Shown here piece by piece: positions 7,909 to 56,755 of a stretch of 64,000 bases of DNA. Below the pieces are notes generated by a model. It was given only the letters and a program-made list of their open reading frames with translations. It made no database searches and had not been told where the DNA came from. Within the stretch, counting starts at the first letter, position 1. Every line of letters begins with the position of its first letter. This DNA is from Spartobacteria bacterium (GTDB lineage Bacteria; Verrucomicrobiota; Verrucomicrobiia; Chthoniobacterales; UBA10450): positions 124,001-188,000 of the forward strand of contig PNAA01000057.1 in the NCBI GenBank assembly GCA_003169975.1, read 5' to 3'. The position numbers and the translations under genes are program-made.

Positions 7909-10382
7909 ACGCCGATTGGGAACGGATCGAAGTCATCTTCCAGGCCGCGCTCGCCCAGCCGCCCGCGGAGCGCGCCGCTTTCGTGCGTCACGCCTCAGGC
8001 GGCGATGAAAAGCTGGCGGAGCAAGTGACCAGTTTCCTGCGCTCACATGACGCGGCGAGCGACTTCCTGGAACGACCAGCGATCGAACTCCATGCCGAGG
8101 AATTCTCTGGTGACGACGAACCGCTTCCGCCCGGGACTTCGTTAGGCGATTATCGCATCCTCCACCTCCTCGGGCAGGGCGGGATGGGCGAAGTTTACCT
8201 CGCGGAAGACACTACGCTGGGCCGGCAGGTGGCGGTCAAGCTCCTCCGGCGCGGCTTTGGCGCGGCCGGGATCGCCCGGCATCTGCGCCAGGAAGCGCGC
8301 ATCCTCGCCGGACTGAACGACCCGCACATCGCCCGTCTCTACGGCGTCGCTGCCACGCCCGAAGGCGTTCCCTATTTCATCATGGAATACGTGGCGGGCG
8401 AGCGGATCGACGATTATTGCACGCGCGGCGGCCTCACGACTCGCCCGCGTCTCGAATTGTTTCGCAAGGTCTGCGCCGCGGTCAGCTACGCTCATCGACA
8501 CCTCGTCATTCATCGCGACATCAAACCGGCCAACATTCGGGTCACACCCGAGGGCGAACCGAAGCTGCTCGATTTCGGGATCGCGAAACTGCTCGAGACC
8601 GGGGCGACCCCACGGACGGAAAACACCGTGACTCTGGCCGGAATGATGACTCCGGATTACGCCAGCCCCGAGCAGGTCCGCGGAGAGACCATGACCACGG
8701 CGAGTGACGTCTACAGTCTCGGTGTCGTTCTTTACGAACTGCTCACCGGCGAACGGCCGCATCGCCTGACAACGCGCGTGCCGCACGAGATCGCGCGCGC
8801 GATCAGCGAGGATGAACCGCTCCGCCCGAGCCAGCGCCGCCGCGAACTGGCCGGCGATCTCGATAACATTCTCCTCATGGCGTTGCGCAAGGAGCCGGAA
8901 CGCCGCTACGCCTCGGTCGGCCTTCTCTCCGAGGATATTCGCCGACATCTCGTCGGGTTGCCGGTGCTCGCGCATAAGGACACGAGCGCCTATCGGGCGG
9001 CTAAGTTCGTTAGGCGCCATCGCGGCGCGGTGGTCGCGACAATCCTGGTGTTTTTTGCGCTGCTGAGCGGCCTGGTGGTCGCGAATTGGCAGGCCCGCAT
9101 CGCCCGACAGGCGCAGGTGAAAGCCGAGACCGCGCGCAAACAGGCGGATCGCCTGAACCAATTTCTCGAGGATCTGATGAGCAGCGCCGATCCCGCGAAG
9201 ATGGGCAAGGATGGAAAGGTCGTTCCCATGCTCGATGCCGCGGGCGAAAAGCTCGATCACGAGTTAGCTGACGAGCCGGAAATTCTCGCGCGCGCTCACG
9301 AGACCCTCCGGCGCGCCTATCAGCACCTGGGAATTTCCGACCGGGCCGAAGAACATGCTCGCGCCGCCCTCGCGCTCGTGCGCCGTTTGCACGGACCCGA
9401 TGATCCGGCGACGGCGCGGGCAGAGTTTCATCTCGCGGATGTCTTGAGCGACCGTTATCGCCCGCAGGAAGCGGAACCGCTGCTCCGTCACGCGCTCGCG
9501 GTGGAGCGAAAGCAGCCCGTGCCTAACGATGGCGATCTGGCCGATACGCTCGAGACCCTGAGTTTCATCTACGCGACCGAGAAACGTCCGGGCGACGCCG
9601 AGAAGGTCGCGCAGGAAGCGGTCTCCCACGCGCGCGCCGCCTGGGGCGAGCAGGACCAGCGCTTTCTCCGCGTGCTCAACGAAATGGGCAACATTCAGAT
9701 CGCGAAGGGAGATTACGCCGCAGCCACCCCGATCTATCGCCGGCTCATCGCGCTCAACGACAAAGTGCAGCCTGGAGGCCTCGGCTCGATCGCGCCGCAA
9801 ATCAATCTCTGTATCTCCCTTTTCAATCTCGAAAAGTTCGCGGAGCTGGAACCGGCCGTGAACCGCCTGCTCAGCGACACCAACCGGCTCGTCGGCGAGC
9901 ACGGCCTGCCCACCGCCATTGCTCTGGCCGTTCGTGGCTGCCTCGAGTTTGCCAAAGGCGATTACGCGGCCGCGATTCCGCCGTTACGAAAAGCGCTCGG
10001 CATTCTCCCGAACAACTATCCGCCCGGCCAGACGAGTGTCGTGCAATGTCGCGTTCTGCTCGGCCTTTGCCTCACTCGCACGGGTCATGCAGTCGAGGGC
10101 GAACCGCTGCTGCGCCAGGCTTTGGCCGACGGCGGAAAAGTCGATCGTGCGGAATTTGCCCACACCGTCGGCAATCTCGAAACCGCCCTCGGCGAATGTC
10201 TGCTCGCCCAAAACCGTGAGGCCGAAGCCGCGCCGCTGCTCCTCGCCGGCTACAATGATCTCAAAGCGCGGTTGGGGGACAAGAATCCCCTCACCATCAA
10301 AGCCGTCGCCCGTCTTCGTACCCTGCATCAGGGGAAAATTGATTCGAACAAGACGGCCGTTTCCTGGCATCCGGATCGTTAG
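7905..10382 (+). CDS. membrane Ser/Thr protein kinase with C-terminal TPR region
   Basis: 825 residues. The kinase domain (about 83-350) has the glycine loop LGQGGMGEVYLAED, the Lys in QVAVKLL (residue 112), the catalytic loop HRDIKPANI (His about 203), the DFG motif in LLDFGIAKLL and the activation segment PDYASPEQVRGE. A single membrane span lies at about 376-396 (VVATILVFFALLSGLVVANW). The rest is helical TPR-type repeats, predicted extracytoplasmic, probably a sensor or scaffold. It overlaps the ECF sigma gene by four bases, which marks it as the partner kinase. The stop TAG lies inside a TCGTTAGGC copy (10376-10384). Confidence 0.95.
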   Translation: MNADWERIEVIFQAALAQPPAERAAFVRHASGGDEKLAEQVTSFLRSHDAASDFLERPAIELHAEEFSGDDEPLPPGTSLGDYRILHLLGQGGMGEVYLAEDTTLGRQVAVKLLRRGFGAAGIARHLRQEARILAGLNDPHIARLYGVAATPEGVPYFIMEYVAGERIDDYCTRGGLTTRPRLELFRKVCAAVSYAHRHLVIHRDIKPANIRVTPEGEPKLLDFGIAKLLETGATPRTENTVTLAGMMTPDYASPEQVRGETMTTASDVYSLGVVLYELLTGERPHRLTTRVPHEIARAISEDEPLRPSQRRRELAGDLDNILLMALRKEPERRYASVGLLSEDIRRHLVGLPVLAHKDTSAYRAAKFVRRHRGAVVATILVFFALLSGLVVANWQARIARQAQVKAETARKQADRLNQFLEDLMSSADPAKMGKDGKVVPMLDAAGEKLDHELADEPEILARAHETLRRAYQHLGISDRAEEHARAALALVRRLHGPDDPATARAEFHLADVLSDRYRPQEAEPLLRHALAVERKQPVPNDGDLADTLETLSFIYATEKRPGDAEKVAQEAVSHARAAWGEQDQRFLRVLNEMGNIQIAKGDYAAATPIYRRLIALNDKVQPGGLGSIAPQINLCISLFNLEKFAELEPAVNRLLSDTNRLVGEHGLPTAIALAVRGCLEFAKGDYAAAIPPLRKALGILPNNYPPGQTSVVQCRVLLGLCLTRTGHAVEGEPLLRQALADGGKVDRAEFAHTVGNLETALGECLLAQNREAEAAPLLLAGYNDLKARLGDKNPLTIKAVARLRTLHQGKIDSNKTAVSWHPDR

Positions 10383-38736: not shown

Positions 38737-38988
38737 GAACGATTCTTCCGTGCGGGGAAACGGTTCCCGGGCACGGGGGAATAGTTTTCCCGCATGGCGG
38801 GACGGTTCCCACGCACGCTGGAACGGTTTCCACGCACCGCGGAATGAGTCCGGCGCACGTTGGGATGATTCCGACGCCCGCTGGAATGGTTCCGACGTAC
38901 GGGGGAATGATTCCGGCGCACGGGGAAATGGTTTCCACGCGCCGGAAAACGGCCCGAAAACAGGGCAAAAACATCCGGGCGCACGAGA
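38737..38988. repeat. array of twelve degenerate 21-bp repeats upstream of cdsA
   Basis: Twelve consecutive 21-bp units fit GAA(C/T)GGTTCC(C/G)(A/G)CGCACGGGG with drift; the last two are weakest. All frames on both strands are largely open and yield heptad-repeat pseudo-proteins (for example ARWNGFHAPRNESG), which I do not count as genes. No spacers. The period is the same as in the array at 19867 but the sequence differs. The bases from 38989 to 39186 hold nothing recognisable. Confidence 0.87.
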
Positions 38989-49254: not shown

Positions 49255-50334
49255 ATGCCTGAGACGCAAACAACACCGATCGAGAAGAAAGTCATTTTCA
49301 CCTGCGGAGACCGGGACTTTAGCGTGCACGATGTGATCGACGCCGCCCATTTCCGTGGCGAGCTGGAGGCGGAATGGAACAACCTCCTGCGGTGCGTCGC
49401 GGCCGAGAAAAAAGCGGACGAGCAGGATCTCGAATTCAGCGATGAGGCGATCGACACCGTGGCGGAACAATTTCGTTACCAGCACGATCTGATCACCGCG
49501 GAGGAAACGGAGCGCTGGCTCGCGGAGCGCGGCCTCACCCTGAGCGATTTTAGTGCGTACTTTGTGCGGCACTATTGGGGCGAGCAGTGGCACGACATCG
49601 AACCGGAGGCGATCGATTTGTTTTCCGCGCCAGGCGACTTGCGCGAGTTGCTTACCAACGAATTGATCCTCTCGGGGGAGCTGGATCGAATGGCCCAGCG
49701 GTTGAGCTGGCGGGTCGCCGCCGGTTGCGCGGCGGAAGGCAAGGCCATCGATCCACCACTGATCGCCGCCGAAGAGGCGCTCTTTTTTGAGCGCAGCGGC
49801 CTGACCGAGGACCATCTGGCCACCTGGTTGGAGCGAGTGGGACGCGACCCGGGATGGTTCCGCGATGCCCTGACGATGGAAGCAATCCAGCGCCGCGACT
49901 GCGCCGCGCTCCTATCCCGCCCGGCGCGGGAACGCGAAATCGCGGCGCTCCGGCTGCCCTTGACCTGCTTCGAGGTGGAGACCATCGAATTGGATTCGCT
50001 CGACGCGGCGCGCGAAGCGCTCCTATGCGCGCGCGAGGATGGCATGGCGATGGAAGAAGTCGCCGCCGACGGGCGTTATCCGTACCGCCACACGGAAGTG
50101 TTGCTCGAGGAAATCCCCGAGGAACTGCAGCAGAAATTTCTCAGCGTGCACCCGGGCGACATTCTCGAGCCGATCGCGCATGGCGACGGCTTCCATCTGT
50201 GCCGGATCATCGGCAAGGCGGAACCGGACGTCGACGATCCGACGGTGCAAGAGCGGGCGGACAACCGCATCCTGGACCGCCATTTTGCGGACCTGACGAC
50301 GCGTTACATCCTGTGGCAAATCCTGCTTGCCTAA
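49255..50334 (+). CDS. PpiC/parvulin-like protein linked to peptide export
   Basis: 359 residues, no signal peptide. The N-terminal 230 residues are helical and acidic (LEAEWNNLLRCVAAEKKADE, LTLSDFSAYFVRHYWGEQW). The C-terminal part resembles a parvulin-type isomerase: LQQKFLSVHPGDILEPIAHG, DGFHLCRIIGKAEPDVDDPT. PpiC-like proteins occur beside some exported-peptide systems as maturation factors. It ends four bases before the start of the ABC exporter gene and its TAA lies in a TCGTTAGGC copy, so it is the first gene of the operon. Its exact role in this cassette is inferred from position. Confidence 0.72.
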   Translation: MPETQTTPIEKKVIFTCGDRDFSVHDVIDAAHFRGELEAEWNNLLRCVAAEKKADEQDLEFSDEAIDTVAEQFRYQHDLITAEETERWLAERGLTLSDFSAYFVRHYWGEQWHDIEPEAIDLFSAPGDLRELLTNELILSGELDRMAQRLSWRVAAGCAAEGKAIDPPLIAAEEALFFERSGLTEDHLATWLERVGRDPGWFRDALTMEAIQRRDCAALLSRPAREREIAALRLPLTCFEVETIELDSLDAAREALLCAREDGMAMEEVAADGRYPYRHTEVLLEEIPEELQQKFLSVHPGDILEPIAHGDGFHLCRIIGKAEPDVDDPTVQERADNRILDRHFADLTTRYILWQILLA

Positions 50335-50338
50335 CGAA

Positions 50339-53300
50339 ATGAAAGCGGACGACGAAAATCTTCTGCGCCGTTCATCGCTCTTCCAGTTCCTACCCGAGGA
50401 GCATTTCGAACAACTGCGGCCGCTCCTGCAGGAGGAGAGTTACGAGTTTGGCGACCTTCTCGTTAGGCAAGGTGACCCCGCCGACTCATTTTATGTCCTG
50501 CTCAAGGGCCGCGCCCGGGTGGTCAAGGCCGATCAAAGCGGCAACGAGTTTGCCCTCGCCACCTTAAAGCCCGGCGACAGCTTTGGCGAAGCAGCCCTTT
50601 CCGAAGGCGGCACTCGCACGGCCACGGTGCGTTGCAGCACGGCGGTCGAGGCGCTCCGCCTGGATCGTGCCGATTTTCTCCAGCTGGCCGAGGAAACGCC
50701 GGAGCTGAAACATTATATCGAGATGACCGCGCGGCATCGGGCGCTGCACGGTTTTCTTTACGAGTTCAGCAACTTCGGCCGGCTTCCCGTGCCCGCGTTG
50801 CGCAGTCTGGTGGAAAAACTGACGCCGGTCGAAGTGGCCAAAGGCGAGGCGATCATCCGGCAGGGCGATGCGCCCGGCGCGATGTTCATTCTCGCGAAGG
50901 GACGCGCGCGCGCTTTCCATTCCGACAACGGAACGGAACACAACCTCGCTTTTTACCGGGACGGCGATTTCTTCGGCGAACTCTCAATCCTCAACGGCTC
51001 ACCACGCGCCGCGTCGGTCGAAGCGTTCAGCGATTGCCGTCTGCTCGCCCTCGAGCCGGATGCGGTCCGCGACTTGAAGCGCCACTATCCGGAGTTCGGC
51101 AAGCTGATGGAAGAACGGCTGGCGCAATACCAGGTCAAAACGGAAGCGCGCGTGCCGCTCGATTTCACGACCGAAATGCTGCCCGCCGAAGTCGCCGCGC
51201 ACGACAAGATCGGCCTCGATGGCGACAAGGCCACTCCGGCGCCCGCGGCCGCCGAGGGCGAAGACCCCTTCGCGGAAGAGAGCGGCCTCTTCCGGAAAAG
51301 TAAGAAGCGGATCAAGCGCCTCGAGCACATCGAGCAGATCGACGAGATGGATTGCGGCGCGGCCAGCCTCGGCATGATCTGCCGTCACTTCGGACGCAAA
51401 GTCAGCCTCTCGCGGATTCGCCAGCTTTGTCACACTTCGACCGACGGGACGAGCCTGAAGGCGCTCTCTCGCGCCGCGACGGAACTCGGCCTGGCCGCGC
51501 GCGCGTTGAAGGTGTCGCTGCGCAATCTCCCGTTCATGCCGCTGCCGGCCATCATCCACTGGGAAGGCAACCACTGGATGGTCCTCTACGATGTGACCGA
51601 GACCTACGTCAAAGTCGGCGATCCCGCGCGCGGTTTGCGCCGGATTCCACGGAAGGAATTTGAGCAGAATTGGTCCGGCTACGCCGCGCTTTTCGATTAC
51701 ACGGTCGCCTTCGAGAGCGCCCCGGAAAGCAAACCGGGCCTCGCCTGGATTCTGCCTTTCCTGGCGAAGTTCCGCACCCTTTTCCTGCAAGTGATGCTGC
51801 TCGCGATCGCGATCACCTTCCTCGAACTGCTCTTCCCGATCTTCACCGAGATGGTGGTCGACAAGGTGATCGTCGAAAAGAACATCAGCTTGCTCAAAAC
51901 CATCCTCCTCGGGATGGGCGCGGCGGTCTTTTTTGTCCAGGCCTCGTCGCTCGCGCAGGAATATTTGCTCTCCTTCGCAGCCGTTCGGCTCGACACCGCG
52001 ATTCTCGATTACCTAAGCCGGCAAATGCTCTCGCTGCCGATGAGTTATTTCACCAGCCGGCGCACCGGCGATATCCAACGCCGGCTCGATGGCGCGCGGC
52101 AGGTCCGGCAGTTCGCCGTGCAGCACGGCATCGGCGCGATTCTCGCCCTCGTGCAACTCGTCGGCGCGCTTTCGCTCATGGCGCTCTACAGCCCGTCGCT
52201 CATGTTCGCCTTTCTCGCGACCACGCCGCTTTACGGCGGGCTGATGTATTTTTCGCAAAAAGTGCTGCGCCCGCTTTTCGCCGGCGTGGAGGAAAGCCAG
52301 GGCAAATACAGCTCGCACCAGATCGATGCGATCAAAGGCATCGAAGCGGTCAAAGCCGCCTCGGCGGAAAATGTCTTCCGCGACATGATGCTGAACGAAT
52401 TCCTCTCCGTCTCGCGCAAGATTTTCCGGAGCAGCTTCATCGTCATGACCTACGACAGCGTGCTGCAAACCATCGGCATGATTTCGACCGCGATCTTTCT
52501 CTGGGTCGGCGCCAACCAGGTGATGTCGGGCGCGCTCAGCATCGGCGGCTTCGTCGCTTTCAGCTCGCTCACCGCGATGGCTTACAGCGGCATCCTGCGA
52601 ACGTTAGGCGTGTGGGACAACATGCAGTTCGCCACCGTCCTGCTGAATCGGCTGAACGATATTTTCGAGCAGGAGCCGGAACAGGGACGCGACCGTTCCC
52701 AACTCATACCGGTGCACAGTCTCGAGGGCCGGATTGAACTGCGCGGCGTCTCTTTCAAATACGGCGGCCCGGAGGCGCCTAACATCCTGACGGACATCAC
52801 GCTCGACATCGCGCCCGGGCGAATGGTCGCCTTCGTCGGCCGGAGCGGTTGCGGAAAAACCACCCTGATCAAGCTGATCGCGGGTCTGCTGGAGCCAACC
52901 GAAGGCACGATCCTGTTCGATCAAACGGACCTGAAAACGCTCAACTACCGCGACGTCCGTCGGCACATCGGGATGGTCTTGCAGGAAAACCATATCTTCA
53001 ACGAGTCGATCGCGCGCAACATCGCCTTTGGCGACGCCGAGCCGGATCTCGATCGCGTCCTGGCCGCGGCGCAGGCCGCGGCGGCCCACGATTTCGTGAT
53101 GCGCCTTCCGTTAGGCTACGAAACGAAAATTGGCGAGTCCGGCCTCGCACTTTCCGGCGGGCAAAAGCAGCGCATCGCTATCGCGCGCGCCATTTACAAC
53201 AACCCGCCGGTCCTGATTTTCGACGAGGCGACGAGCGCGCTCGACACGGAATCGGAGCGCGCCATCCAAGATAACCTCGGCCGCCTGACGGCGGGTCGCA

Positions 53301-53458
53301 CGACGATTGTGATCGCGCACCGGCTGAGCACGATTCGCGAAGCGGACTCGATTGTCGTCCTGGAAAAAGGAATGGTCGCCGAGGTAGGCAACCACGACCA
53401 GTTGATGGCGCAGCGCGGCCTTTATTTTTACCTTTCCAGCCAGCAGCTCGGGATCTGA
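50339..53458 (+). CDS. peptidase-containing ABC exporter with two cyclic-nucleotide-binding domains
   Basis: 1039 residues from the ATG at 50339. Two cNMP-binding-like domains come first (about 15-125, FGDLLVRQGDPADSFYVLLK; and 140-255, VAKGEAIIRQGDAPGAMFIL). A C39 peptidase domain (about 325-455) follows, with catalytic Cys339 in QIDEMDCGAASLGMICRHFG, the His in IIHWEGNHWMVLYDV and the Asp in VGDPARG. The membrane domain begins about 470 and has MSYFTSRRTGDIQRRLDGAR. The ATPase has Walker A VGRSGCGKTTLIKLIAG (about 834), signature LALSGGQKQRIAIARAI, Walker B LIFDEATSALD and VIAHRLSTI. C39 exporters cut double-glycine leaders while exporting peptides. All catalytic residues are present. Confidence 0.95.
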   Translation: MKADDENLLRRSSLFQFLPEEHFEQLRPLLQEESYEFGDLLVRQGDPADSFYVLLKGRARVVKADQSGNEFALATLKPGDSFGEAALSEGGTRTATVRCSTAVEALRLDRADFLQLAEETPELKHYIEMTARHRALHGFLYEFSNFGRLPVPALRSLVEKLTPVEVAKGEAIIRQGDAPGAMFILAKGRARAFHSDNGTEHNLAFYRDGDFFGELSILNGSPRAASVEAFSDCRLLALEPDAVRDLKRHYPEFGKLMEERLAQYQVKTEARVPLDFTTEMLPAEVAAHDKIGLDGDKATPAPAAAEGEDPFAEESGLFRKSKKRIKRLEHIEQIDEMDCGAASLGMICRHFGRKVSLSRIRQLCHTSTDGTSLKALSRAATELGLAARALKVSLRNLPFMPLPAIIHWEGNHWMVLYDVTETYVKVGDPARGLRRIPRKEFEQNWSGYAALFDYTVAFESAPESKPGLAWILPFLAKFRTLFLQVMLLAIAITFLELLFPIFTEMVVDKVIVEKNISLLKTILLGMGAAVFFVQASSLAQEYLLSFAAVRLDTAILDYLSRQMLSLPMSYFTSRRTGDIQRRLDGARQVRQFAVQHGIGAILALVQLVGALSLMALYSPSLMFAFLATTPLYGGLMYFSQKVLRPLFAGVEESQGKYSSHQIDAIKGIEAVKAASAENVFRDMMLNEFLSVSRKIFRSSFIVMTYDSVLQTIGMISTAIFLWVGANQVMSGALSIGGFVAFSSLTAMAYSGILRTLGVWDNMQFATVLLNRLNDIFEQEPEQGRDRSQLIPVHSLEGRIELRGVSFKYGGPEAPNILTDITLDIAPGRMVAFVGRSGCGKTTLIKLIAGLLEPTEGTILFDQTDLKTLNYRDVRRHIGMVLQENHIFNESIARNIAFGDAEPDLDRVLAAAQAAAAHDFVMRLPLGYETKIGESGLALSGGQKQRIAIARAIYNNPPVLIFDEATSALDTESERAIQDNLGRLTAGRTTIVIAHRLSTIREADSIVVLEKGMVAEVGNHDQLMAQRGLYFYLSSQQLGI

Positions 53459-53471
53459 AATTCGCCTAACA

Positions 53472-54656
53472 ATGCCTAACCAACTCATGCAACGTGGCTC
53501 CGGGGAAGCGGAGTCCGAGATGTTGCCGCAAGATCCGCCGCACTGGTTTGTCCGCTCCACCGCGTGGCTGTTCATCGGGATGTTCGCGATCGCTTTGCTC
53601 GCTTCGGTGCTCATCAAGCTGCCGGAGACGGTTAGTTGTCCCTTCATTCTTGTGCCCACCGGCGGCGCGGACCCGATCCAGGCGCCACGGATGGCGGTCG
53701 TTAATCGGGTTTGCGTGACGGAAGGCCAGACGGTGGCGGCGGGCGACCCGCTCTTCGTTCTGCGCTCGGACGAAATCCGCGACTGGGGGACGCAGCTGCG
53801 CACCTTGACGGCTGACCTGCGCACGCATGAGGAGGGACTGGCCAGAGCCGACACGGCCGACGCCGCGCAGCTTGAGATCAAGAAAGCGGAAATCTCGCAG
53901 GCGGAGAGCGAAGTGAAGTTCCGCGAGAAGCACTCGGCGAGCAGCCGGGATTTGCTCACTCGCATGGAAAAACTGACCAAGAATGGCGGCATCTCGCTGG
54001 TCGAGGTGATTCAATATCGGCTCCAGTCGGCCGAATCGGACAAAGACCTGAGCGTCGCGCAACGCACTTTGCAGCAGGTCAAACTCGAACGTCAGCAGAT
54101 GGAGAGCGAGCATGCGCGGGTGCACGATGAAAACGTGGCGGAGATCGCCAAGCTCAAGGTCCGGCTGAGTGCGCTCAAAGGCGATCTCGAGAATTCGCAG
54201 CAAAACCTGCTTTCCGTCCGGGCGCCCTACGCCGCCGTCGTGATTTCACTGGCCAATCAAAACGCCGGCAGCGTGGTGCAAATGGGACAGGAACTTTGCC
54301 AGCTGGCCGCGATCGCGGCGAAACCCCGCGGCCGGCTCACCCTCAGCGAAACGGCGGTGCCGCGACTCGCCGTCGGGCAACGCGTCCGTTTCTTTTTCGA
54401 CGCCTTTCCTTATCAGCGTTACGGCGTGGTCAATGCAAAACTCGATTGGGTCAGCCCGTCCGCCATCACTTCGCCCGCGGGCCCGCATTTCATGGCGCTC
54501 GCCTCGCTCGATGAAAAGGAGCTGGCGGCGCGCCGCCATCCTCTCCCTTTGCGGGTCGGGATGGGCGGGGAAGCGCGTATCGTCGTGGGGCAGCGTACCA
54601 TCATGGAGTACGCGTTTGAGCCGATCCGGCAGCTGCGCGAAAATCTGCGAGACTGA
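53472..54656 (+). CDS. HlyD-family adaptor protein of the peptide exporter
   Basis: 394 residues from the ATG at 53472 (MPNQLMQRGSG). One membrane span (STAWLFIGMFAIALLASVLI) lies near residue 35. A biotinyl-lipoyl-like strand follows (APRMAVVNRVCVTEGQTVAA), then a long coiled coil (about 110-250, ASSRDLLTRMEKLTKNGG) and a beta-barrel end (LTLSETAVPRLAVGQRVRFF). It bridges the inner-membrane exporter to the outer envelope. It begins 13 bases after the ABC gene. Confidence 0.92.
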   Translation: MPNQLMQRGSGEAESEMLPQDPPHWFVRSTAWLFIGMFAIALLASVLIKLPETVSCPFILVPTGGADPIQAPRMAVVNRVCVTEGQTVAAGDPLFVLRSDEIRDWGTQLRTLTADLRTHEEGLARADTADAAQLEIKKAEISQAESEVKFREKHSASSRDLLTRMEKLTKNGGISLVEVIQYRLQSAESDKDLSVAQRTLQQVKLERQQMESEHARVHDENVAEIAKLKVRLSALKGDLENSQQNLLSVRAPYAAVVISLANQNAGSVVQMGQELCQLAAIAAKPRGRLTLSETAVPRLAVGQRVRFFFDAFPYQRYGVVNAKLDWVSPSAITSPAGPHFMALASLDEKELAARRHPLPLRVGMGGEARIVVGQRTIMEYAFEPIRQLRENLRD

Positions 54657-54662
54657 TTTGTC

Positions 54663-55661
54663 ATGCCGCGTCCGCTTTTCAGAGCCAAAGTTGAGGACCT
54701 GACGACCGCGAACGAGGCGATGAAGCGCTGCCTTCGCCTGGCCGCGCTGGCCGCGAAATCCGAAGTGCCGGTCGTTCTCCTCGGCGAGACCGGCACCGGC
54801 AAAACGCTTCTCGCCCACGCGATCCACAATTCCTCCGCGCGGGCGAACAAACCGTTCATCGCCTTCAACGCTTCCGCGATGAGCGACACCTTGCTTGAAA
54901 GTCAGCTCTTCGGCCACGAACGCGGCGCCTTCACCGGTGCGCAACAAACGGTGAAAGGGAAGTTCGAACTCTCCAACGACGGCACCCTGTTGCTCGACGA
55001 AATCTCCGAGATGAGTCCGCTCGCGCAGGTCAAGATTCTGCACGTCCTCGAGTATGGCGAATTCGAGCGGCTCGGTTCCGAACAGATGCTCACCTGCAAC
55101 ACTCGCATCATCTGCGCCACCAACTGCTCGCTCAGGGAACGCGTCCGCGAGGGGAAGTTTCGCGAGGATCTCTATCATCGCCTGAACGGTTTGACCCTGC
55201 TCATTCCGCCTCTGCGCGAACGAATCGAGGAACTCCCGGCCCTGATCGCGGCGGAACTGAAAGCCTCCGCCTTTAACGAGGGGAAAACTATCACCGCCAT
55301 TCATCCCGAGGCGATGGATAAGTTGCTGGCTTATCCCTGGCCCGGAAATCTCCGCGAACTCAGCCACACCGTACGGACCATGACGCTCTTCTGCGAAGGC
55401 CGCGTCATCCTGCCCGAACACGTGATCTTTCCGCCCGACTTGAAATCCAGTTCGCCGCCGCCGGCGCCGGTGACGGAGACGTCTCCGTGGCCCAATGGCC
55501 AGGCCGATGGTGTGCGCGATCTTTCGCTGGCCGGCGCCGTCGCCCGGCATGTGAGATTTGTTTACGATCAAGCCGGCCGGAACCAGCGGCGCACCGCCCG
55601 GTTGCTCGGCATCTCGCGCGCGACGCTGGCTCGACATCTTCGGGGCAAGGTTCAAAAATGA
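54663..55661 (+). CDS. sigma-54-dependent transcription activator without receiver domain
   Basis: 332 residues. The AAA+ domain (about 20-250) has Walker A LLGETGTGKTLLAHAIHN, the sigma-54-contacting loop in FGHERGAFTGAQQTVKG, Walker B LLLDEISEMSPLAQVKILH and the arginine region REDLYHRLNGLTLLIPPLRE. The C-terminus is a Fis-type HTH (NQRRTARLLGISRATLARHL). No sensor or receiver domain is visible, so it may be controlled by amount or by a partner. It lies six bases after the HlyD gene, between the exporter and the peptide genes, and is the likely activator of the latter. Confidence 0.93.
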   Translation: MPRPLFRAKVEDLTTANEAMKRCLRLAALAAKSEVPVVLLGETGTGKTLLAHAIHNSSARANKPFIAFNASAMSDTLLESQLFGHERGAFTGAQQTVKGKFELSNDGTLLLDEISEMSPLAQVKILHVLEYGEFERLGSEQMLTCNTRIICATNCSLRERVREGKFREDLYHRLNGLTLLIPPLRERIEELPALIAAELKASAFNEGKTITAIHPEAMDKLLAYPWPGNLRELSHTVRTMTLFCEGRVILPEHVIFPPDLKSSSPPPAPVTETSPWPNGQADGVRDLSLAGAVARHVRFVYDQAGRNQRRTARLLGISRATLARHLRGKVQK

Positions 55662-55844: not shown

Positions 55845-55861
55845 TTGGCATGAATGGTGTT
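55845..55861 (+). promoter_or_regulatory. possible sigma-54 promoter before the peptide genes
   Basis: TTGGCATG, four bases, then GTGTT resembles the -24/-12 pattern YTGGCACG-N4-TTGCW (good at -24, weak at -12). The predicted transcript start would fall around 55873, directly before the first peptide gene. The nearby sigma-54 activator makes this more likely. Confidence 0.35.
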
Positions 55862-55875
55862 AATAGGCTGGCAAT

Positions 55876-56061
55876 GTGAGCTCACCAAAGGACAAGAAAA
55901 ATGCACCTGCCGGTGGATCACCGATTCATCAGCAGAAGCGCAAAAAAGAAAGATTGATCAAGCTCGATGATCTCATCCCGAAAGGGAACGTCTCAGGCGG
56001 CCGTCAATTGCTTTTCGGTGCGACTGACATCAACCAAACCAACAACAAAAAGGGGAGATAG
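55876..56061 (+). CDS. double-glycine-leader peptide, distinct core
   Basis: 61 residues from the GTG at 55876. The stretch KERLIKLDDLIPKGNVSGG has the same layout as the leaders of the three following peptides (charged Lys-rich start, (K)xxDLxPxxxxxGG). The predicted core after GG is RQLLFGATDINQTNNKKGR (19 residues). A second GG earlier (NAPAGGSP) makes the cut site less certain. The stop is five bases before the next peptide gene. Either a precursor of a second exported peptide or a diverged member of the family. Confidence 0.6.
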   Translation: MSSPKDKKNAPAGGSPIHQQKRKKERLIKLDDLIPKGNVSGGRQLLFGATDINQTNNKKGR

Positions 56062-56066
56062 ATAGT

Positions 56067-56210
56067 ATGGCTACTAATAAGAAGAAAAAGGCAGTGAAAG
56101 TGCAAGACATGAAGCCGGCCAAAGACGCCAAGGGCGGAGTCAGGGCACCGGTTCGGCAGCGCGGGCCGGTCGACGCCGGTCGCACGGTCGCGGGCCGGAC
56201 GGAGCACTAA
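56067..56210 (+). CDS. double-glycine-leader peptide 1 (tandem family)
   Basis: 47 residues. The leader reads MATNKKKKAVKVQDMKPAKD, then AKGG; the core is VRAPVRQRGPVDAGRT followed by VAGRTEH. The ribosome-binding site GGGGAGA precedes the ATG. The leader is nearly identical to those of the next two genes while the core has only the last two pentad units. Too short for routine gene calling. Expected substrate of the C39 exporter upstream. Confidence 0.8.
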   Translation: MATNKKKKAVKVQDMKPAKDAKGGVRAPVRQRGPVDAGRTVAGRTEH

Positions 56211-56321
56211 CCGCCGCCCAACGGGATTAGCCGCCTTGGGTTCAAGCCCGGGCGGCGGATCCACCGAAAAGTTTAATCAACCAACCAAAACAACAACAAA
56301 ACAACGAAGGAGATAGATAGT

Positions 56322-56483
56322 ATGGCTACTGATAAGAAGAAAAAGACAGTGAAAGTGCAGGACCTCAAACCGGCAAAAGACGCCAAGGGTGGAGTCGGCA
56401 TTGCCGGCCGCCAGGTCGCCGGACATACCGTCGCGGGCCGCCAGGTCGCCGGCCGCACGATCGCGGGCCGGACGGAGCACTAA
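56322..56483 (+). CDS. double-glycine-leader peptide 2 with pentapeptide-repeat core
   Basis: 53 residues. Leader MATDKKKKTVKVQDLKPAKD plus AKGG. The core is VG followed by five pentads IAGRQ, VAGHT, VAGRQ, VAGRT, IAGRT and EH. The core has no Cys or Ser and is basic. The upstream region is A-rich (CAACAACAAAACAACGAAGG) and contains GGAG before the ATG. The coding and upstream sequence repeats at 272-bp spacing in the next gene, so it is a recent duplication. Confidence 0.85.
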   Translation: MATDKKKKTVKVQDLKPAKDAKGGVGIAGRQVAGHTVAGRQVAGRTIAGRTEH

Positions 56484-56593
56484 CCGCCGCCCAACGGGAT
56501 CAGCCGCCTTGGGTTCCAGCCCGGGCGGCCGATTCACCGAAGCTTTAATCAACGAACCAAAACAACAACAAAACAACGAAGGAAATAGATAGT

Positions 56594-56755
56594 ATGGCTA
56601 CTGATAAGAAGAAAAAAGAAGTGAAAGTGCAAGACCTGAAACCGGCGAAAGACGCCAAGGGTGGAGTCGGCATCGCCGGCCGCCAGGTCGCCGGACATAC
56701 CGTCGCGGGCCGCCAGGTCGCCGGCCGCACGATCGCGGGCCGGACGGAGCACTAA
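56594..56755 (+). CDS. double-glycine-leader peptide 3 with pentapeptide-repeat core
   Basis: 53 residues, differing from peptide 2 in one leader residue by eye (KKKKE instead of KKKKT); the core is identical, with five (V/I)AG(R/H)(Q/T) units and EH. Same A-rich leader and GGAA-type ribosome-binding site. It is the last gene before a strong terminator. Confidence 0.85.
   Translation: MATDKKKKEVKVQDLKPAKDAKGGVGIAGRQVAGHTVAGRQVAGRTIAGRTEH

Follow-up and report, generated by a model that had tools for sequence, protein, structure and literature searches.

A conserved operon of Chthoniobacterales encodes a putative peptide exporter and double-glycine peptides with constant leaders and hypervariable, often repetitive cores

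The window, that is the whole stretch of 64,000 nucleotides analysed here (contig PNAA01000057.1, positions 124,001 to 188,000), carries three small tandem genes on the forward strand between 56067 and 56755, each with a GGAG/GGAA-type ribosome-binding site 5' of its open reading frame (starts at 56067, 56322 and 56594). Their frames and translations agree with the preliminary description, which had reported three peptide paralogues with a double-glycine leader, five (V/I)AG(R/H)(Q/T) units in the second and third and two clean units in the first. Peptide 1 (56067-56210, 47 residues) has the core VRAPVRQRGPV-DAGRT-VAGRT-EH (56139-56207). Peptides 2 (56322-56483) and 3 (56594-56755), of 53 residues each, share an identical 29-residue core, VG-IAGRQ-VAGHT-VAGRQ-VAGRT-IAGRT-EH, encoded at 56394-56480 and 56666-56752. 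The leader common to all three is MAT(N/D)KKKKxVKVQD(L/M)KPAKDAKGG, which in peptides 2 and 3 reads MATDKKKKxVKVQDLKPAKDAKGG; neither Pfam nor NCBIfam gave a match for these peptides or holds a model of the leader family. The repeat core has a net charge of +3 and is more periodic than its shuffled versions (p = 0.0005; best period 10, or 2 x 5), and TRF detected DNA tandem repeats of 15/30 bp and of 272 bp at the peptide genes. Genes 2 and 3 differ at six codons, five of them synonymously and one non-synonymously, and the spacers are nearly identical; they are thus best explained by a recent duplication that included the spacer. The best alignment of gene 1 requires several indels within its core, which was therefore probably remodelled through small insertions and deletions. 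The spacers between the peptide genes contain no intrinsic terminator, one weak sigma-70-like site and no Rfam element, the only matches being sub-threshold and attributable to chance. A short beta-solenoid had been proposed as one outcome of structure prediction, but the single-sequence AlphaFold model of the 53-residue peptide has a core without regular structure (mean pLDDT 62), which fits disorder, although a model of so short a repeat peptide folded without an alignment proves little. Elsewhere in the window, an imperfect 21-bp/63-bp tandem array (38799-38940; repeats such as GNGSRARGNSFPAW) lies between annotated-looking genes and is open in more than one frame.

The operon to which these genes belong extends beyond the three tandem peptides first noted and starts at 49255, with the order PpiC foldase, ABC exporter, HlyD, sigma-54 activator, conserved LDDLIP peptide and variable peptide(s), all on the forward strand. 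The window has this order intact, as do 11 relatives whose loci include sufficient flanking sequence, the remaining loci being broken or cut by contig ends. The conserved first gene (49255..50334) encodes a probable parvulin-type, SurA/PrsA-like foldase, whose sequence gives weak matches to Rotamase (Pfam, E 0.007) and to the TIGR04500 peptide-maturation proteins (E 3e-8, under the cut-off), and whose AlphaFold model (pLDDT 90) has PrsA/SurA as its best Foldseek matches (E 2.5e-5, with a low overall TM). Inspection of the sequence by eye revealed no signal peptide, so the foldase may act in the cytoplasm. The second gene (50327..53458) encodes a peptidase-containing ABC exporter of 1043 residues, with two cNMP-binding domains (PF00027, E 7e-48 over two stretches), a peptidase C39 domain, an ABC membrane domain and an ATPase, as assigned with Pfam. 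The C39 triad C343/H416/D432 and the Walker residues are invariant in 37/37 homologues. A peptidase domain with its complete Cys-His-Asp triad, joined to an ABC exporter in one protein and encoded beside small GG-leader ORFs, makes the protein a probable PCAT. HlyB is a type I exporter that does not cleave peptides. The peptidase-like domain, TMD and NBD align over residues 331-1038 with PCAT1, ComA and HlyB (4ry2, 8hf4, 7sgr), which all lack the cNMP domains. The C39 domain is the only Peptidase_C39 match found in this 97%-complete genome, and any GG peptide of the organism thus probably uses this exporter. The exporter gene is followed by those of an HlyD-type membrane fusion protein (53472..54656; PF13437, E 6e-16; TIGR01843, E 2e-46, under the cut-off) and of a sigma-54-dependent activator with an AAA+ domain and a C-terminal Fis-type HTH (54663..55661; PF00158, E 6e-62), which is conserved in the operon (66-83% identity among relatives) and carries no receiver domain. 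NHLP and Nif11 leader domains gave no match at E<=1 in Pfam and NCBIfam.

Between the activator gene and the three variable-peptide genes lies a further precursor gene (55876..56061), conserved in the alignment of relatives, which starts with GTG and encodes a GG-leader peptide of 61 residues with a leader ending in KLDDLIPKGNVSGG and the predicted core RQLLFGATDINQTNNKKGR (56002-56058). Both peptide classes share the same leader register: [VL]-13, D-11, L-10, P-8, [A/V]-4 and GG. About 20 bp 5' of the GTG start stands a conserved -24/-12-like element, TGGCATGAATGGTGTTAATAG (55846..55866, forward strand), and GGCAY-N6-TGNT occurs at the same place in 37/41 loci, against 0.0036 expected per window. 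Measured against the reference promoter TGGCAC-N5-TTGC, the -24 half and the spacing fit sigma-54 and are kept; most loci lack the -12 C and have A, G or T after TG, and the canonical GC is found in L044, the most divergent member. Recognition by sigma-54 is uncertain because of this -12 half. Nevertheless, since the -24 half and the spacing fit, rpoN is present in the genome and the activator gene is adjacent, the peptides of the operon are likely to be under sigma-54 control.

The order Chthoniobacterales, to which Candidatus Udaeobacter belongs, comprises uncultured bacteria that are abundant in soil. A lack of homologues in any relative would have refuted the preliminary description, but homologues exist: the variable leader occurs in 47/210 genomes of the order and the conserved peptide in 48/213, and 45 genomes are common to the two lists and have both peptide types. 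In genome contigs, where a single-sequence scan gave no match, an alignment-based scan located the conserved peptide at 44 named MAG loci, which by their names come from Chthoniobacterales, Candidatus Udaeobacter and Spartobacteria. Among the genomes sampled from the class and the phylum, matches to the leader were confined to the order. All loci are MAG-derived and some are broken or incomplete (L045, L035). For instance, the L045 locus (7930-9333, genome G024) has no exporter gene and a truncated or split HlyD and sigma-54 gene, and has kept its peptides; the operon may be decaying there, or the assembly may be at fault. A literature search returned no description of this peptide system in Verrucomicrobia, Chthoniobacterales included.

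Several other precursors were observed within the order. An orphan GG-leader peptide, MATEKEELKARDKKEPKPGIRDLKPKKDVKGG-AQKNARGDKRPPSTGTGEIDFMIWD (L053:18160-18331, reverse strand; genome place G000:C5:378235-378294), is encoded a long way from the single C39 exporter that its genome has, by which it is presumably exported. A second precursor type (L087:993-1181 and 8202-8384, also L029 and L032) has the N-terminus N(V/I)VVRSxWRRxKK.. before a DLEPEKDVKGG motif and a core that begins with GGVTG, and its duplicates flank adenylate-cyclase-like genes. In L044 (7361-8863), from another family of the order, five leader peptides follow the operon, two of which share the short core PISWPGRN. Finally, two further small ORFs lie away from the operon in genome G014 (L138:1495-1862); their leader is divergent (KIRDQKPVKDPKGG, KLRDQKPVRDPKGG) and their cores are rich in His and Lys.

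The contrast between a constant leader and a changing core, first seen in the three tandem peptides, holds across the order, as does the double-glycine leader itself. Mean pairwise identity is 79.5% for the exporter, 84% for the leader and 55% for the core of the conserved peptide; for the variable cores it falls to 27% against 24.5% for shuffled cores, and the true gap is smaller still because 27% is a best-of-several value. The cores had been characterised as basic, Cys-free and regularly repeated. The second of these traits extends to all 58 distinct variable cores, whose 1342 residues include no Cys, and repetition is also found among relatives; a basic character is not general, net charge ranging from -1 to +7 (mean 1.7) with only 28% of the cores at +3 or more. 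Gly makes up 24-25% of the core residues, whereas the same DNA read in its other frames would give 5-10% Gly and 1-6% Cys; this composition, restricted to the coding frame, argues for selection at the protein level. The cores are also strongly hydrophilic (GRAVY -1.0). About a third of those tested (17/53, with 0.5 expected) show short periodicity at p<0.01, and the repeat units of relatives include PTGTQ x6, TGQH x5-6, AQGHA x5, LGGGH x5, GGSSLDK x3-4 and GHSAQTGG. Units within an array differ mainly by synonymous changes, with pS/pN values of 0.42/0 for PTGTQ, 0.68/0 for TGQH, 0.76/0.04 for AQGHA and 0.52/0.23 for the array of the window (per-array P 0.009-0.026, obtained by a simple method from few events per array), which suggests that the repeat itself is selected and runs counter to the codon-level refutation, cores free of selection, that the preliminary description had allowed for. 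The units of the LGGGH array are identical in DNA, so this array has probably expanded recently. Our reading of these patterns is that new micro-repeats emerge and the repeat then comes under purifying selection.

By its gene set, the operon is most fittingly described as a verrucomicrobial form of the groups I and II 'bacteriocin' clusters of cyanobacteria described by Wang, Fewer and Sivonen 2011 (PMC3140520), as far as these are presented in the part of that account that was consulted. Both have a long-type C39 ABC transporter with N-terminal CAP_ED/cNMP domains, an HlyD protein and a number of small GG precursors whose cores are diverse. The cyanobacterial clusters also include a SurA/rotamase gene, the counterpart of which would be the foldase, recognised below curated cut-offs by sequence and through PrsA/SurA by fold (again E 2.5e-5, low overall TM). 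In contrast to the clusters as presented there, the Chthoniobacterales operon has an internal sigma-54 activator, a DLxPxKDAKGG leader family with one conserved precursor and variable cores made of Cys-free micro-repeats, and lacks NHLP, Nif11 or HetP precursors. Relative to that part of the account, what is new is thus the peptide families, the likely sigma-54 control, the conserved partner peptide and the hypervariable Cys-free micro-repeat cores. HetC of Nostoc PCC 7120, presumed to export a regulatory peptide, has a similar cNMP-binding, C39 and ABC architecture (PMC10986499). However, hetC has no linked HlyD gene or known GG substrate, both of which are linked here, and the exporter described here has two cNMP domains. 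A HetC-like domain organisation is shared by PteB of Synechococcus elongatus, which acts with EbfG1-4 in biofilm formation (PMC4997328, PMC9981879), a system in which a C39 exporter likewise comes with several small peptides that have a GG motif and no known homologues. The likeness is one of analogy and not of sequence comparison. Mature EbfG peptides exceed the present ones in length (6-7 kDa), and EbfG1-3 assemble into amyloids through a hydrophobic hotspot (PMC4997328, PMC9981879), whereas the present cores are hydrophilic Gly-rich repeats.

Based on the gene content, its conservation and the evolution of the cores, we propose that the operon is dedicated to the export of peptides, according to the following scheme. 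The sigma-54 activator would turn on both peptide classes from the -24/-12-like element: a first class whose core is conserved (..GG|RQLLFGATD..), and a second of one to several peptides with a hypervariable, Gly-rich, Cys-free and often micro-repetitive core. The foldase may hold the precursors in an export-competent state, and the C39 domain of the exporter would cleave both leader types after Gly-Gly. The peptides would then exit through the ABC-HlyD complex and an outer-membrane channel encoded elsewhere, with the exporter presumably gated by a nucleotide ligand of its N-terminal domains. Outside the cell, the repeat peptides would most likely be structural or surface components, with a part in the extracellular matrix, in adhesion and possibly in self-recognition, and not toxins, and their cores would evolve by expansion or replacement of short in-frame repeats, with selection acting on composition and repetition and not on a fixed sequence. 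Export after the predicted Gly-Gly cleavage is the part of this model that we hold most firmly and regard as highly probable; for the scheme as a whole, down to the matrix or surface role of the repeat peptides, our confidence falls a little short of even.

The preliminary description had likened the array to those of bacteriocins and RiPPs, and as an account of function this analogy fares poorly. Unmodified bacteriocins or microcins, acting as narrow-spectrum toxins whose cores vary through arms races between neighbouring soil strains, would use precisely this classic route of GG leader, C39 exporter and HlyD, their tandem precursors would be diverse and the net charge of +3 of the window's own core would suit them. 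Yet no immunity candidate is conserved within 4 kb downstream of the peptides in 30 loci, where the only conservation is genus-level synteny; the Pfam and NCBIfam bacteriocin models gave no match, and hydrophilic, Cys-free cores, only 28% of which reach +3, are poor candidates, so that we consider a toxin array unlikely. We would give about the same low weight to a pheromone or self-recognition system, in which the conserved peptide is a family signal and the variable one defines the strain (pherotype). Such a system would account for the co-export of one conserved and one hypervariable peptide by an exporter that resembles HetC, for which export of a signalling peptide has been suggested (PMC10986499), but no gene for a sensor kinase or receptor accompanies the peptide genes, the activator has no sensory domain and its sequence does not follow the variation of the cores, and low-complexity repeats would be unusual ligands for specific receptors. 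It is more doubtful still that the peptides are RiPP precursors modified by enzymes encoded elsewhere: the leader/core contrast, the weak TIGR04500 match of the foldase and the abundance of Ser, Thr, His and Gly in the cores are in line with this, but searches of Pfam, NCBIfam and the gene content of relatives, made at operon level, revealed no modifying enzyme either in this operon or in that of any relative, the cores have no Cys, and such different cores in a single enzyme context would be unusual. Lastly, near-shuffled core identity between relatives is what would be expected if only leader binding or cleavage counted and the cores were drifting filler, but the frame-specific composition and the synonymous bias among repeat units led us to reject this last, highly improbable reading, and with it the idea that the cores are not translated.

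A matrix or surface role of the repeat peptides, as for the PteB/EbfG1-4 peptides in Synechococcus biofilms, thus appears most likely; it is favoured over toxin, pheromone and RiPP because of the missing downstream immunity candidate and modification enzyme and because the cores, hydrophilic and of low complexity, carry no consistent positive charge. More speculatively, and with a rather small chance of being right, the operon may secrete a strain barcode: with exporter and leader fixed, the core would be reinvented by new in-frame micro-repeats to give a species-specific coat of the cell or matrix, which the conserved partner peptide would anchor or nucleate. GG-peptide export has been studied mainly in connection with toxins and with cyanobacterial development and biofilms, and the system described here would extend it to a product defined by repetition and composition and not by sequence. 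It would also offer a tractable case of protein-level selection acting on newly arising micro-repeats.
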